DNA of 64,000 bases from Thermoguttaceae bacterium (GTDB taxonomy: Bacteria; Planctomycetota; Planctomycetia; Pirellulales; Thermoguttaceae): positions 45,504-109,503 of the forward strand of contig JANXBW010000017.1 of assembly GCA_025060325.1 (NCBI GenBank), written 5' to 3'. The translations under genes and the position numbers were made by a program. Below are positions 27,714 through 35,833 of the stretch, piece by piece; the first letter of the stretch is position 1; the number at the start of each line of letters is the position of its first letter. The notes beneath the pieces are model-generated. The model saw only the letters and a program-made list of their open reading frames with translations, was not told where the DNA came from and did not search any database.

Positions 27714-29756
27714 CTATCCCGCGGAGCGGCAAATCAACACTCTGCGGCCCGAAAGCTGATTGATGACTGGACTTAGGGCTACGAAAAGTGTCAAAGCTAG
27801 ACACAGCTGTCCCAGCCAGTCGCCCCAGCGTAAATAAAGTGTTTCTTGGTCGTTTGGTGTCACCTCAGCCAAGAGAAGGTCGGTTTGCCGTCGGGCACCT
27901 ACATCCCGGATTCGGCCCGCGCTGTCCACAAAAGCCGACAGTCCCGTATTGGCAGCGATGAGATGCGGTTTACGAAATTCCACCGCCCGAAGGACACTAC
28001 AGGCCAGGTGAAGATCAAGCGCTGCCGCACCGCGGAACCAACCGTCGTTTGTCAGATTGACTAAGACGTTTGGCCGATACCCCTGGTCGCGAAGAAAAAG
28101 AAGCTGTCGACGAATGAGGTGCGGCACAGTGGATTCGAAACATATGTTGGGTGCCATCTGAGCTTTGCCGAGGACGAAACACTTTGGCTCTCGCCCAGGC
28201 TCTGTGTTGACTTGCAAAGTGCTAAGAGGTCGAAGGTCCAAAATCCAACGTAGGTGCCGGGCATACGGGACATATTCCCCGAACATCACAAGATGAAGCT
28301 TGTCGTAAACATGGATTGCCGGGCGAAGGGACGGATTGGGCGACCGTTGAGGGGGGACATCGGCCTGAGGCCGGGCAGGGTGGGAGGAAGCGTCCTTGCG
28401 TGTTTTTCGAAAAGTAGGTTCGCCGGTCGCGCCGGGGGAAGTTCCGGTGTCGTCAACAGCTGGAACAAACACTGCGGAGTTGTACATCTTTGGCCCTTCA
28501 GCGGTCCATTCCTCTCGGTTGATCCCTACAATAAGCGGTGCTTTGAATTGAGAGGCGGATTGATGGAGAAGTTCTCTGCTTGCTTCGCAGGCTTGGGCTA
28601 AGCGCTTGCGGAAAAGTTCGGGCGAGTCTTGCCAATCGCCAGGCGGAATAGCATCGGGCGTTGCGTCAACAAGGGGGTAACCGTACACGCTTTCTGGCCA
28701 GATAATTAGGTCGATGTTCTTATAGGTCTCCACGCCTTTACTTGAAAGCATGGAATATTGTGTGTGCATGAGAAAAGGGGTAAGCGGAGGGGGTGGAAAG
28801 ACCACATCCACCGACCCTTGGACAAGAAGGACCCTCAGCTGTGGGTTACTGTCGGGAAATGCCGTTAGTCGCAACGCGCCGTAAACAGCAACGCTGAGGA
28901 CAATCATCCCGCCGAGCATTGTGCCGATGGCCGCCCGCGCTAGGTTCCTTGTAGCAACCGACACGGCCAGAATGGCCGAAACGGCCGCCATCACAAAACT
29001 GAGCGTGTACTGCCCTCCCAAATCGCACACTTGAAGAAAGAGACTCCACCGGTACTGTGTGTGCGCGAGGCTAGCCAACGTGAAGCCGGTAAGAAGATGA
29101 GCGCGGACATATTCGAGGGCTGTCCACACCACGGGCACAACTAGCGCAATGGGAAGCCGAAGCCGGTGGAATCCTACTCGGCAGATCGCTACGAACGCCG
29201 GGAGGTAGCAGGCCAAGTATGCGGAAAGAGCTACCCACCCTATGCTTACGGCCGGATGGGGATACCTTAGCCAATGGAGCGTGACAAGCCAAAACACAAA
29301 CCCAGCCCACCAAATTTGCCAGTACGGCTTTAGGAAAATGGGAGACAACTTTCGGGCCATTCGGCGTGGGAGCGATCGCGGGCCAGAACTGAGTTTGCGG
29401 GCCGTTCGCGGATCAGCAGCCTGCTTCGTCTTGCAAGGAGGGGGATCGGCCGCTGGAGGCGGGCAGTGTCCTGCATTATTTTTGCGGCGGGCAGCAGCCC
29501 CATTCGCGCCAGGATCCCTCGTCGGTTGTTGTGTCGTATGGCCCGGGGGAGCGCCCAGCTTTTTACGCATGACAAGCCAAACCCATGGGGTGAGCGCTAC
29601 CCACCCGATGAACGGCAGAACCCCTCCCTGGTGGGGACCAGGCAGGGCTAGCCAGTACAGGAAGGCTCCCCAGGCTGCTTCCGGCCAGGCAAGGTGCCGA
29701 TCGGGGGTGGGAAGGAGGCTTAAGACGAAAGTTTTTATCCGACTGCTTGCGATCAT
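27714..29756 (-). CDS. lnt: Apolipoprotein N-acyltransferase
   Basis: 680 residues against the usual ~500-540. Eight-helix-type membrane part first, then the nitrilase-like domain with the catalytic triad: IWPESVYGYP (Glu ~355), VYDKLHLVMFGEYVPY (Lys ~486) and NICFES (Cys ~538). Lnt adds the third acyl chain to outer-membrane-bound lipoproteins. The extra length comes from two low-complexity inserts: about residues 70-135 (Pro/Ala/Lys/Arg-rich, between the first and later membrane helices) and about 435-475 (Pro/Ser/Thr-rich, inside the nitrilase domain, on the periplasmic side). With lpxB it shows that a Gram-negative outer membrane is made. Confidence 0.95.
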   Translation of the reverse strand: MIASSRIKTFVLSLLPTPDRHLAWPEAAWGAFLYWLALPGPHQGGVLPFIGWVALTPWVWLVMRKKLGAPPGHTTQQPTRDPGANGAAARRKNNAGHCPPPAADPPPCKTKQAADPRTARKLSSGPRSLPRRMARKLSPIFLKPYWQIWWAGFVFWLVTLHWLRYPHPAVSIGWVALSAYLACYLPAFVAICRVGFHRLRLPIALVVPVVWTALEYVRAHLLTGFTLASLAHTQYRWSLFLQVCDLGGQYTLSFVMAAVSAILAVSVATRNLARAAIGTMLGGMIVLSVAVYGALRLTAFPDSNPQLRVLLVQGSVDVVFPPPPLTPFLMHTQYSMLSSKGVETYKNIDLIIWPESVYGYPLVDATPDAIPPGDWQDSPELFRKRLAQACEASRELLHQSASQFKAPLIVGINREEWTAEGPKMYNSAVFVPAVDDTGTSPGATGEPTFRKTRKDASSHPARPQADVPPQRSPNPSLRPAIHVYDKLHLVMFGEYVPYARHLRWILDLRPLSTLQVNTEPGREPKCFVLGKAQMAPNICFESTVPHLIRRQLLFLRDQGYRPNVLVNLTNDGWFRGAAALDLHLACSVLRAVEFRKPHLIAANTGLSAFVDSAGRIRDVGARRQTDLLLAEVTPNDQETLYLRWGDWLGQLCLALTLFVALSPVINQLSGRRVLICRSAG

Positions 29757-30987: not shown

Positions 30988-31059
30988 TGCCCGGTGGTGT
31001 AATGGGTAACACACGGGATTTTGGTTCCCGTATTCCTGGTTCGAATCCAGGCCGGGTAG
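30988..31059 (+). tRNA. tRNA-Gln (anticodon TTG)
   Basis: 72-nt cloverleaf: acceptor TGCCCGG/CCGGGTA with U1-A72 and a G2-U71 wobble, anticodon stem CGGGA/TCCCG enclosing TTTTGGT (anticodon TTG at positions 34-36), T arm CCTGG TTCGAAT CCAGG, discriminator G as usual for tRNA-Gln. CCA is not encoded. Confidence 0.95.
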
Positions 31060-31370
31060 CTTGGCAAGAGCTCCTTGAGCGCCGTCCATTTGGCTAGCTT
31101 CGACCCCGCCCCAAAACGTCCCGCCTTTTCGTCCCTCGCATTGCGGTCGGACCTCGGTTTTTCGATGCCCATTTGAAAGTCTATCCGCCGGTGGGGCGAG
31201 CTTTACCCTCCGGAAGGGGATAGTTTGCTTGCACTTTTCCGCGCGGGTGCCAACTCCGTGTTCTTTGGCGGCCTCCATTGCTTGGCTCCACGGTCTTGGG
31301 CACCTCCCTTTCCGGCCCTTTATTGGCAAAGAATACTTCCCGAGTCTCCCTGGAATCCGGTTTTGCGATA

Positions 31371-31460
31371 GCTCCCCCGTGCTACTGGTCGTGGCTGCCT
31401 TTGCGAACTGCCTGAGGGGCTGCGTATGACCGCTCCCCTGTGCCCCTGGTCGTGGCCGGC
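31371..31460. repeat. Two-unit direct repeat, 61-bp period
   Basis: Units begin at 31371 and 31432; 24 of the first 29 bases match, and similarity continues for about 8 more bases (TTT-CGAA). The period equals that of the set at 4064-4215, and the units share a CCCC-GT-CCC-TGG-CGTGGC type core with motifs at 34377 and 5683. It lies just upstream of the FG-GAP pseudogene in non-coding DNA. Confidence 0.4.
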
Positions 31461-31539
31461 TTTTCGAAAGTATCCTCCTGCTGCGTTATCTTGCTGGTGC
31501 GTTTTCGAGCATTCAGGAGCGTGTGAAGAAACTGGCAAT

Positions 31540-33220
31540 CGCCGAGCTTAATTACGCTTGGGCTTCCGATATCGCTGCTTCCTACTTGCCGCCCCGATAT
31601 TTGGGCAGTGCCGGTGGAGCAGGGCAGAAACTGCGCGTCTTTATCAACGAACGTCGATTTTCTTTTCGGGACTGACGCGTCCGATTGTGGACTCCCGGGT
31701 TTTGCCGGATCGATTTGGCCGCGGTTACCTGCCGGTTCTCCCCGATTGTAACGGCGATAGATTTCATAAGATGTTTGTCACTTGCGATGCCGAGATCTTC
31801 GGCGGCCGGGCTTTTCCAGGCAGTGCGAAGCCGGCAAATAGTCTTTCCGTTACCGTCGGTCGGTAAGACGTAAGGCGGCACGTGTCGGACAAAGTCGGAT
31901 TTAAAATGCCGAGGCCTACAACGGCCAACCGAATCGCGGCGTTGTCAACAAGGCTGGATGTCGCGATATAGCCGTGGGGTGCGATAGTATTGGCAATGCC
32001 TTCGGTGGCTTTTCGTACAGCGGGCTCCACATTGATCGGTTTTCGGGGGCGCGGTTTGAGGATTGGCATTCAAAGGACATTGGCGGCTCTAATATTCTCC
32101 CCGATTTCGGCAGTTTTTATCGTGGCAGGTCTCCTGATAAAGCGGGGCTAGGTATTAACATGGGCGGCTTAGACAACGGCGGGGCTATGGATCTAGCTCC
32201 GTCCTAGTATGTTGACATCCGCGATCCGGTGCTTCCTAATTCCCCCCGTGGAATACCGGCAGGGGCTCTTTTCCTGGCGGAATCGGCTGGCTAGACCGGC
32301 GAATTTTCTTTGAGAAACTGACCGGTGATGGTTTGGCCTTTGAAGCTCGGTTGAAGCTTAATCCAGACAAGCGGACGCTTTGATCGGGCAGGAAAGCGCC
32401 GGGAGTTCGCTATTGGTCTCTTGCCGATGTGGAAATGAGGGGGATCTTAATGCTTTGGCGGTCGGTCTGGCTAATTGGCGCTAAGCACCGCGCCCCGAAT
32501 ATGTCGGCGCCTGCTTGCGGCGAAATGAAGGCAACCTCAATTTCCGGGAGGCGACCGAAGAAGCAGGCCTCAGCCCGATTCATTGGGCGTATCGCGAGGG
32601 TGCCAGTTTTCCGATGCCCCCCTTCTCCTGCGGTGCTTGGTGCTCGCGTCGGTCCGACTAATTGGCGGCTTCATTTGGCGGATGCTGTCTTTTGCGACTT
32701 TGACAACGCGGGCTGGCTCGACCTTGTTGTGCTTAACCGAAGTGAATCGATGAATCAGCCGGCAAGGGGATTTTATTTAGGAATTAGGGCAGCGTGTCTT
32801 TAAGCCAAGGTCCACCATATTGAGCGGCCTGGACGGTAGCGGCGTTTGGGGCGAAAAGGCGAGATCTTAATAACAACGGCGCTCTTGATCTTGTAATGGC
32901 CTCCGATCCTGACAATACTGGCCTGGCGGCAAGCATGGGTCGCCACGAAAGCAAAGTGTACCGGCATGCGGGTTTACCGGGGCAGGACAGTAATTGGCAC
33001 CGTTTGTGCTTCGTGGGGATTAAACATGCGGAGGCTCTCGGGGCTTGTGTTGACGCTTGGCAACCCGGCTTGGGTCGCTTGCTTGGTTGCCGCGTTATTG
33101 CTGCCGGGCGAAGCGGGGCACCTTTCAAAGGCCATTTGGTGCTGGAAAGGAAGCCGCCTGTTGACATCACGTTTAGGTTCCCTGGTGAAGGGTGTTTTAC
33201 GTATGGCGGGTAGAGGCTAA
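31540..33220 (+). pseudogene. Decayed FG-GAP repeat / ASPIC_UnbV (CRTAC1-like) protein gene
   Basis: No intact ORF spans this stretch, but pieces in several plus-strand frames follow the order of one family. Worn calcium-loop repeats appear at about 31740 (LPDCNGDRF), 32160 (NMGGLDNGGAMDLA), 32690 (CDFDNAGWLDLVVLN) and 32875 (DLNNNGALDLVMAS). NEGNLNFREATEEAGLSP at about 32515, in yet another frame, is a typical inter-repeat segment. The end (about 32985-33210) matches the ASPIC_UnbV pattern: NWHRLCFVG, LGACVDAW, RVIAAGRS, HLVLERKPPVDITFRFP. Frame changes and stops between the pieces make it a pseudogene. Its left limit is uncertain. CRTAC1-like proteins are usually secreted; they are abundant in planctomycetes. 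Confidence 0.72.
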
Positions 33221-33397
33221 CAGGTCTGTGGAGCTAAGCCTTGGGGTAGGTTTAGTCAGCTATCAAATAGGAGCCACCGGACGGTAGAATGCATCAGGCG
33301 GCCGAAGGTAGTTTGCGCAGTGCCCACGTGAGATCGGCTTGTGTGGTACCGACTGCAGTTGGTAGTCCTACTTTGAGATGTGAAGGGAGATCTGCCG

Positions 33398-34270
33398 ATG
33401 GCCAAGCACGCTGCGGGTCGCTTGTCAACATGGCATGGTGTGATTGTTGTCGTGATCGTCATGACTTCGGGGGTTTCCCCGGCCTTTGGGCAAGCGGAAG
33501 GGGTGACCGAGGATGAGCTGCGGGCAGGAAAAAATTTCATCCCCACACCGGTTTATTCGCCGGAAGAGGACGAAAGGATTCTCAAGCTTTATGAGGGCCT
33601 TCGGGTTGCCGACGTTTGCGATGGGATGGATAAGGCCGGGCTGCAGAATATCGGGCTTGTTTCCCCAGAGATCCAGCCCTTATGGCGCGACACGGAGAAT
33701 TTTACGCATCGGATCGTGGGCATTGCGGTGACGGTTCGCTATGTGCCCACCAATCGGCCGCCGATTGGCCGAAAGGAGACGGCCGAATTTAACGAAGCGG
33801 TCAGCCAGTGGTACCGCGAGTTGTCGCCCGAGCCATTTATTCCCCTTTTACGCAAAGGCACGGTGCTTGTTATCGAAGACGCTGAAGGCGCCGATGTGGG
33901 GACAATCGGCTCCAACAACATCTTGGCGTGGAAGCTTCGCGGCTGTGTGGGCGTGGTGACCAACGCTTCTGCCAGGGACACTGACGAGATCATTGCCCAG
34001 CGGGTGCCGCTTTATTTCAAGCAGCCCGGCCGAGGGATTCGTCCCGGTCGTAACCAGATCGAATCGGTCAATCGGCCGGTGGTCATCGGTGGGGTCCTGG
34101 TGGTGCCTGGGGATGTTATCGTTGCCGACGGTGACGGCGTGATCGTTGTGCCTCGGCAGTATGCGGAGGAAGTGGCTCTCTACGCCCGAGGAATTCTGGA
34201 GTCCGATAAGGCAGCTCGCCGCCGACTCTACGAAAAGTTGGGGATGCCCCTTGATCCGTCGGTAAAATAG
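33398..34270 (+). CDS. RraA-family protein with signal peptide
   Basis: 290 residues from the ATG at 33398, with AAGGGAGA seven bases upstream. A Sec-type signal peptide is clear (WHGVIVVVIVMTSGVSPAFG, cut near residue 28). The RraA/demethylmenaquinone-methyltransferase-like fold follows: LRVADVCDGMDKAGL, a phosphate-loop-like GTIGSNNILAWKLRGCVGVVTNASARDTDEI, and VVPGDVIVADGDGVIVVP. The G-x20-RD pattern and the DVCD acid are those of 4-hydroxy-4-methyl-2-oxoglutarate aldolase/oxaloacetate decarboxylase enzymes in this fold. Export is unusual, since the family is normally cytosolic. Substrate unknown. It precedes an exported esterase by ~380 bp. Confidence 0.85.
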   Translation: MAKHAAGRLSTWHGVIVVVIVMTSGVSPAFGQAEGVTEDELRAGKNFIPTPVYSPEEDERILKLYEGLRVADVCDGMDKAGLQNIGLVSPEIQPLWRDTENFTHRIVGIAVTVRYVPTNRPPIGRKETAEFNEAVSQWYRELSPEPFIPLLRKGTVLVIEDAEGADVGTIGSNNILAWKLRGCVGVVTNASARDTDEIIAQRVPLYFKQPGRGIRPGRNQIESVNRPVVIGGVLVVPGDVIVADGDGVIVVPRQYAEEVALYARGILESDKAARRRLYEKLGMPLDPSVK

Positions 34271-34654: not shown

Positions 34655-35833
34655 ATGGCGTTAACAAGTGGCATTCTTGTCACTTTAGCTGCTGTGGGGT
34701 TTTTCCTTCAGCTGCGTGCTGAGCTTGCTGATTGGCTAAGGCGACTTGATCGCAACGGTGACGGCCGAGTGTCCGCCGAGGAAGTTAAGGGGATTCAGCT
34801 CCTTGAGCGCGTCCTCTCTTTTGCTGACGAAGACCGCGATGGCATGTTGTCGACGGAGGAGCTCCGGGGAGCTTTGCGGCGGCGGGTGGCGCAGGGTGGC
34901 CAGGGCGAACGGTCGCTTTCTCCCCCGCCTCCTGGGGTGGAGCAAAAGGTTTGTCGCCTTACTGTGGATGGCCGGGAGCGATCGTTTATCATTCAGGTCC
35001 CGGAAAAGCGGGAAGGGAAATTGCCCGTTGTGTTTGTTTTCCACGGTGGTGGGGGCCAAGCGGAAAACATGCTCGTTCGCACTAACTTCGGGCCGCTTGC
35101 CGCCAAGGAGTACTTTCTTGTTGTCTATCCAAATGGCTGGAAAAATCACTGGAATGACGGTCGAAAGGCTGTCAGGATTGCTTCCCAGCAGGAAGGCGTG
35201 GATGATGTGAAATTCGTGCGGATGATCATTGAGCATTTAGCCAAGGAGTACCCGATTGACCGTGGGCGGATCTTCGCCACCGGCGTATCAAACGGCGGCA
35301 TTTTTTGCCATTATCTGGCGGCGCAGGCGGCAGACCTTTTTGCGGCCATTGCCCCGGTTATCGGCGGACTGGCCGAGCCGGTGGCAAAGAACTTTCGCCC
35401 CAGTCATCCGATCTCCCTTCTTGTCATTCAGGGGGATGCTGATCCACTTGTGCCGATTGCCGGTGGGCCAATTGCGGGAAGTGATCGCGGTGGCCGAATC
35501 ATCTCCACGGAAGAAATGCTCACGCTTTACCTTGCGCACAATGGGATTATAGGGCAACCTGTTGAGGAACCTTACCCCGATAACGACCCCAATGACGGAT
35601 GCCGCGTGGTGGTCCGGCGGTATCCGCCCGGCAGAGAGGGCGTTAAGGTCGAGTATTGGCTCATTCAGGGAGGGGGTCACACCTTGCCTGGCTCGCCGAG
35701 GGCTGGCTTGCGCTTGGCGGAAGCATTTGTCGGCAAAGTATGCCGGGATTTTGATTTCCAAGAAGTTATCTGGAAGTTCTTTCAATCATGTCCTGCGCGA
35801 TCAACGGATATTACCACTCCTGCCACCAAGTAG
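34655..35833 (+). CDS. EF-hand plus PHB-depolymerase/feruloyl-esterase-like hydrolase
   Basis: 392 residues. A hydrophobic N terminus (signal or anchor, ~5-20) is followed by two EF-hand loops, DRNGDGRVSAEE (32-43) and DEDRDGMLSTEE (58-69). An alpha/beta hydrolase follows, with LPVVFVFHGGGGQAEN (oxyanion region), ATGVSNGG (GxSxG nucleophile, Ser ~212), LVIQGDADPLVP (acid) and GGGHTLPGS (His). The hydrolase is of the LpqC/Esterase-PHB type, acting on polyesters or feruloyl-polysaccharide esters. Calcium binding through the EF hands is expected for an exported enzyme. It stands after the exported RraA gene; substrate unknown. Confidence 0.83.
   Translation: MALTSGILVTLAAVGFFLQLRAELADWLRRLDRNGDGRVSAEEVKGIQLLERVLSFADEDRDGMLSTEELRGALRRRVAQGGQGERSLSPPPPGVEQKVCRLTVDGRERSFIIQVPEKREGKLPVVFVFHGGGGQAENMLVRTNFGPLAAKEYFLVVYPNGWKNHWNDGRKAVRIASQQEGVDDVKFVRMIIEHLAKEYPIDRGRIFATGVSNGGIFCHYLAAQAADLFAAIAPVIGGLAEPVAKNFRPSHPISLLVIQGDADPLVPIAGGPIAGSDRGGRIISTEEMLTLYLAHNGIIGQPVEEPYPDNDPNDGCRVVVRRYPPGREGVKVEYWLIQGGGHTLPGSPRAGLRLAEAFVGKVCRDFDFQEVIWKFFQSCPARSTDITTPATK

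Follow-up and report, generated by a model that had tools for sequence, protein, structure and literature searches.

Positions 31442 to 33242 of the window (the whole 64,000-nucleotide stretch of DNA analysed, G000:C8:45504-109503) carry an inactivated gene, apparently truncated at its 5' end, for a large FG-GAP/UnbV protein of a rare planctomycete subfamily, a reading to which a probability of about 95% is given. Homology over most of its length, several inactivating lesions and relaxed constraint at conserved residues mark the region as a pseudogene, and it is classed as a relic of an FG-GAP/UnbV enzyme-fusion subfamily, not as a working member. In all likelihood, the remnant no longer has a function.

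Identity and extent of the remnant

Frameshift-aware profile alignment to homologues delimits the remnant as follows, with its left neighbour:

30988..31060, + strand: tRNA-Gln(TTG), left neighbour and 5' limit of the remnant
31177..31441, + strand: probable 5' extension, a linker and the tail of a second glyoxalase (VOC) domain, as residues 344-428 of the homologue L182 (score 53; colinear with the main alignment)
31442..33242, + strand: certain part of the pseudogene, a seven-loop FG-GAP (integrin-type) propeller region followed by a degraded UnbV/ASPIC end

The region was compared with intact proteins by means of a frameshift-aware local aligner written for the purpose, with dinucleotide shuffles, the reverse complement and reversed proteins as controls. 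Against L182, an intact 1033-aa homologue from the planctomycete G396, it scores 1213, while shuffled DNA scores 47 ± 5.5 against the same protein, with a maximum of 69 in 60 shuffles. The certain part is fully colinear with L182, matching its residues 429-1021 with 51% identity over 586 codons, and the scores against the corresponding proteins of G469 and G653 are 1055 and 708, respectively. This alignment bears out the preliminary description, which had read the region as a pseudogene of an FG-GAP/UnbV-ASPIC protein and had proposed a frameshift-aware comparison as a check; the span that it gave does fall on the remnant, with a start at 31540 that has to be moved upstream, to 31442 with certainty and probably to 31177. 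Support for the 5' extension is moderate, its score being equalled by 4 of 500 shuffles. The N-terminal domains are absent, and of a VOC or esterase part the remnant shows only what is probably the tail end of a second VOC domain, a weak match from 31177.

In Pfam scans, the read-through product reaches 26.4 bits for FG-GAP_3, just below the cut-off of 26.9, with a weak match to the same model also at loop 7 (32863..32892), and gives no UnbV_ASPIC match, whereas the homologues carry UnbV_ASPIC at 27-53 bits, above the Pfam cut-off. Thus, as regards the marks of the fusion subfamily, the seven loops are present in order and a UnbV_ASPIC domain above the cut-off is absent; the ASPIC-like end that had been proposed is real insofar as the homologues reveal it, and is recognisable only through them. 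Pfam scans of the separate open pieces yielded nothing useful, and a weak DUF3325 match in one of them (E 0.0099) was judged spurious.

The own genome, a 4.78 Mb draft in 89 contigs, contains eight intact UnbV/ASPIC genes, three of which share the contig of the window, and the remnant could in principle be a decayed duplicate of one of these, recently duplicated and then lost. Moreover, each of the seven paralogues compared gives a score above chance with the region (mean score 80, dinucleotide shuffles 44 ± 2.2), and the controls remain near shuffle level (reverse complement 32-45, reversed proteins 40-62), thus homology to the own paralogues is real. The alignments with them are nevertheless poor, needing more than 20 frameshifts at the most permissive penalty, and a PSSM built on these paralogues ran on into noise. 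At the same frameshift penalty, the best of them scores 105 and the rare subfamily up to 1213, by which the duplicate reading is treated as refuted and retains next to no probability; furthermore, the stretches around DPDNSGL and EYRQG align with the subfamily only. The closest relatives of the ASPIC genes come from planctomycetes such as Thermoguttaceae and Pirellulaceae. Upstream of the window, on its contig, three intact UnbV/ASPIC genes form a local paralogue cluster that fits within 12 kb (L056:819-12562, that is G000:C8:29318-41061).

The subfamily to which the remnant is assigned is rare, being present in 5 of 391 other planctomycete genomes and, as a truncated copy, in the sister species G002. 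The core, read through with X in place of each break, matches this copy, a C-terminal fragment held in an open frame of 229 aa, with E = 2.5e-17. When the fragment itself is used as query in a plain translated search of 347 genomes, that of the window included, only G002 and this place in the own genome (G000) are found (E = 2.4e-17), and in a 392-genome phylum-wide sample it has closer, full-length relatives in G396, G469, G653, G672 and G692. With a full-length propeller query, these five and G000 alone pass E 1e-25. Full-length relatives carry FG-GAP_3, FG-GAP and UnbV_ASPIC, preceded in G396 and G469 by glyoxalase (VOC) domains and in G653 (L184, 1070 aa) by EF-hands and an Esterase_PHB domain; in G672, an EF-hand and an esterase are likewise fused with FG-GAP/UnbV, save for one in-frame stop. 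Among the seven copies, a small sample, three are intact (G396, G653 and G469, the last of which is counted as intact and ends at its contig end), two carry one TAA, one is truncated and one is decayed. No intact orthologue is known at this exact locus, a protein search gave no plasmid match and a DNA search gave no phage match.

The single in-frame TAA codons lie at L185:8310-8312 in G672 and at L186:8803-8805 (- strand) in G692, in genes that are otherwise intact and at sites occupied by Tyr, Trp, Phe or Leu in relatives. Both copies could be young pseudogenes or errors. Recoding of TAA is unlikely, as some flanking open frames in both loci end in TAA.

Lesions, calcium loops and loss of constraint

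A stringent profile alignment places 11 frameshifts and five in-frame stops over about 580 codons, eight of the frameshifts reading as losses of one or two bases and three as gains. All seven calcium loops are present in order, and every one of them is damaged:

worn loop 1: ELNYAWASD
worn loop 2: DCNGDRFHK
worn loop 3: VVNKAGCRD
about 32166..32194, + strand: worn loop 4, GLDNGGAMD (intact DLDNDGDLD)
worn loop 5: DV/NEGDLN
about 32696..32722, + strand: worn loop 6, DFDNAGWLD (intact DFDNDGWID)
about 32863..32892, + strand: worn loop 7, DLNNNGALD (intact DLDGDGLLD)

The preliminary description was right that worn loops follow one another in order and, at four, undercounted them; the motifs that it quoted (LDNGGAMDL, FDNAGWLDL and LNNNGALDL) all lie on the + strand in different frames. 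Its view that key Asp residues had been replaced also holds: out of 36 Asp that are invariant in four homologues, one of which is the G672 copy with its in-frame stop, the remnant keeps 19 and has lost 17, most commonly by a change to Asn (6) or Ala (3). Of 193 columns that do not vary among three outgroup copies, G396 keeps 81% and G469 80%, whereas the remnant keeps 56%, and over 54 shared C-terminal columns the remnant retains 63%, compared with 87% for the G002 fragment. Because retention at outgroup-fixed columns is 56% versus about 80% in relatives, the remnant is under relaxed selection and its state is not due to sequencing error alone, in agreement with the decay proposed earlier.

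An intact gene split by sequencing or assembly errors would give a similar picture, and the draft state of the genome as well as one frame break in a run of six C would fit such an origin; the few lesions in short homopolymers could, taken singly, be sequencing errors. However, this explanation is very improbable, since 11 frameshifts and five stops fall within 1.8 kb, conserved Asp and other fixed residues have also been lost, which indel errors cannot cause, and the sister species has a broken copy as well. The flanking genes, moreover, are clean open frames (66% to orthologues for the esterase and 83% for the RraA-like gene), and their intactness speaks against a locally bad assembly.

The decayed gene still looks coding-like when compared with G396, with differences of 0.37, 0.25 and 0.67 at first, second and third codon positions. 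Third positions vary far more than second positions, thus most of the divergence predates inactivation and gives no date for the decay. This visible codon periodicity, together with open pieces of 77-124 aa, might suggest that the remnant still yields functional partial products, either from short open frames or by recoding. Such a possibility is extremely slight, given the scatter of the lesions, the damage to every loop and the drop in constraint at fixed sites; one frame break lies at approximately the same place as the G672 stop, but it is a different lesion, and the intact copies have none there.

Neighbourhood and the probable esterase link

Upstream of the pseudogene lie the tRNA-Gln and then a glutamine amidotransferase gene, and downstream of it two intact genes follow:

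33380..34270, + strand: RraA-like gene, intact, between the pseudogene and the esterase (Pfam PF03737)
34655..35833, + strand: EF-hand and PHA-depolymerase-like esterase gene, intact, 392 aa (Pfam; homology to the N-terminal half of L184)

A second copy of the tRNA-Gln 3' end, as a mark of integration, was not found in the window, nor were Rfam features other than the tRNA at the locus. In a DNA search of 60 relatives, tRNA-Gln and RraA were matched and nothing else was. The window also contains, on the - strand at 27714-29756, a gene for a 680-aa apolipoprotein N-acyltransferase, of which Pfam covers only a part and which has a long insert rich in Pro, Arg and Lys close to the N-terminus.

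The esterase of the window aligns with the N-terminal half of the G653 fusion (L184) at 31% identity (E = 3e-53). Furthermore, G002 has an esterase orthologue (61%) that follows the truncated FG-GAP fragment downstream, in the same orientation and after two intervening genes. On the basis of these two neighbourhoods and one fusion type, the esterase gene is the probable partner of the propeller. In G001 and G009 the esterase is present without an FG-GAP partner nearby. A linkage with RraA was ruled out, since the orthologues in G009 and G026 stand without this FG-GAP partner and G002 has no RraA at the locus.

To the right of the same tRNA-Gln, G001 has no FG-GAP remnant. About 8.5 kb to the right of this syntenic tRNA-Gln, it contains a decayed second EF-hand esterase (L058:18561-19351, - strand), which shares 128 of 261 residues with the esterase of the window and has four frameshifts and one stop; the intact G001 copy is located elsewhere (G001:C22). 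Directly after the tRNA-Gln, another decayed gene in several frames (L058:10700-11640) seems, by eye, to be glycoside-hydrolase-like.

Relation to known systems and proposed history

Through its homologues, the remnant resembles FG-GAP/UnbV_ASPIC proteins (PF13517, PF01839 and PF07593; "CRTAC1 family") in having seven DxDxDGxxD-type loops and a C-terminal UnbV part; unlike them, it is broken and itself falls below every cut-off. Its subfamily has long N-terminal enzyme-like domains, whereas the paralogues of the own genome are roughly 600 aa long and lack them. The seven-bladed propellers of integrins, whose blades are stabilised by calcium, are built from FG-GAP repeats with DxDxDG loops, and such domains also occur in bacteria (PMC3192720). 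The FG-GAP repeats and the DxDxDG calcium loops, seven here, agree with those bacterial propellers; the fold is here read from the repeats alone, and the calcium loops of the remnant are damaged. As for extracellular short-chain-length PHA depolymerase type 1 (NF050058), the likeness lies in L184, where the catalytic domain is fused to FG-GAP/UnbV and scores 160.8 bits, whereas the putative esterase of the window, at 135.5 bits, is below the cut-off of 150 and carries EF-hands.

In Salmonella, few pseudogenes carry many lesions, since young ones are quickly eliminated (PMC2916853). The remnant, with more than ten frameshifts, is like the few persisting ones described there; unlike them, it belongs to a planctomycete draft genome. 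Given this scarcity, it is somewhat unusual and not unprecedented (PMC2916853).

The FG-GAP gene may have been acquired by the genus as an accessory gene, in company with the EF-hand esterase gene or next to it; it would then have lost its function and would now be drifting, while the esterase would have stayed under selection. Judging from the FG-GAP repeats and the fusions, the living version would be an extracytoplasmic, seven-bladed and calcium-stabilised propeller that could serve as a binding or accessory module for the enzyme fused to it or encoded beside it, which may be a short-chain-length PHA-depolymerase-like esterase or glyoxalase-like domains. Going further, it is conceivable, though doubtful, that planctomycetes possess an undescribed two-part surface system, in which an EF-hand PHA-depolymerase-like esterase and a seven-bladed calcium propeller would work together, split or fused according to lineage, the propeller being repeatedly lost and the esterase kept.

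As a dead gene, the remnant is ordinary; it is a further case of a bacterial pseudogene persisting in a heavily degraded state, and the matching locus of another species holds different decayed genes. The architecture of its family, on the other hand, is scarcely described, and the remnant is a pointer to this rare FG-GAP/UnbV arrangement, whose fusions and gene neighbourhoods connect a functionally uncharacterised family with a PHA-depolymerase-like esterase. This link by fusion and neighbourhood, judged to be the sole lead worth pursuing, can be tested at the bench with an intact fusion.
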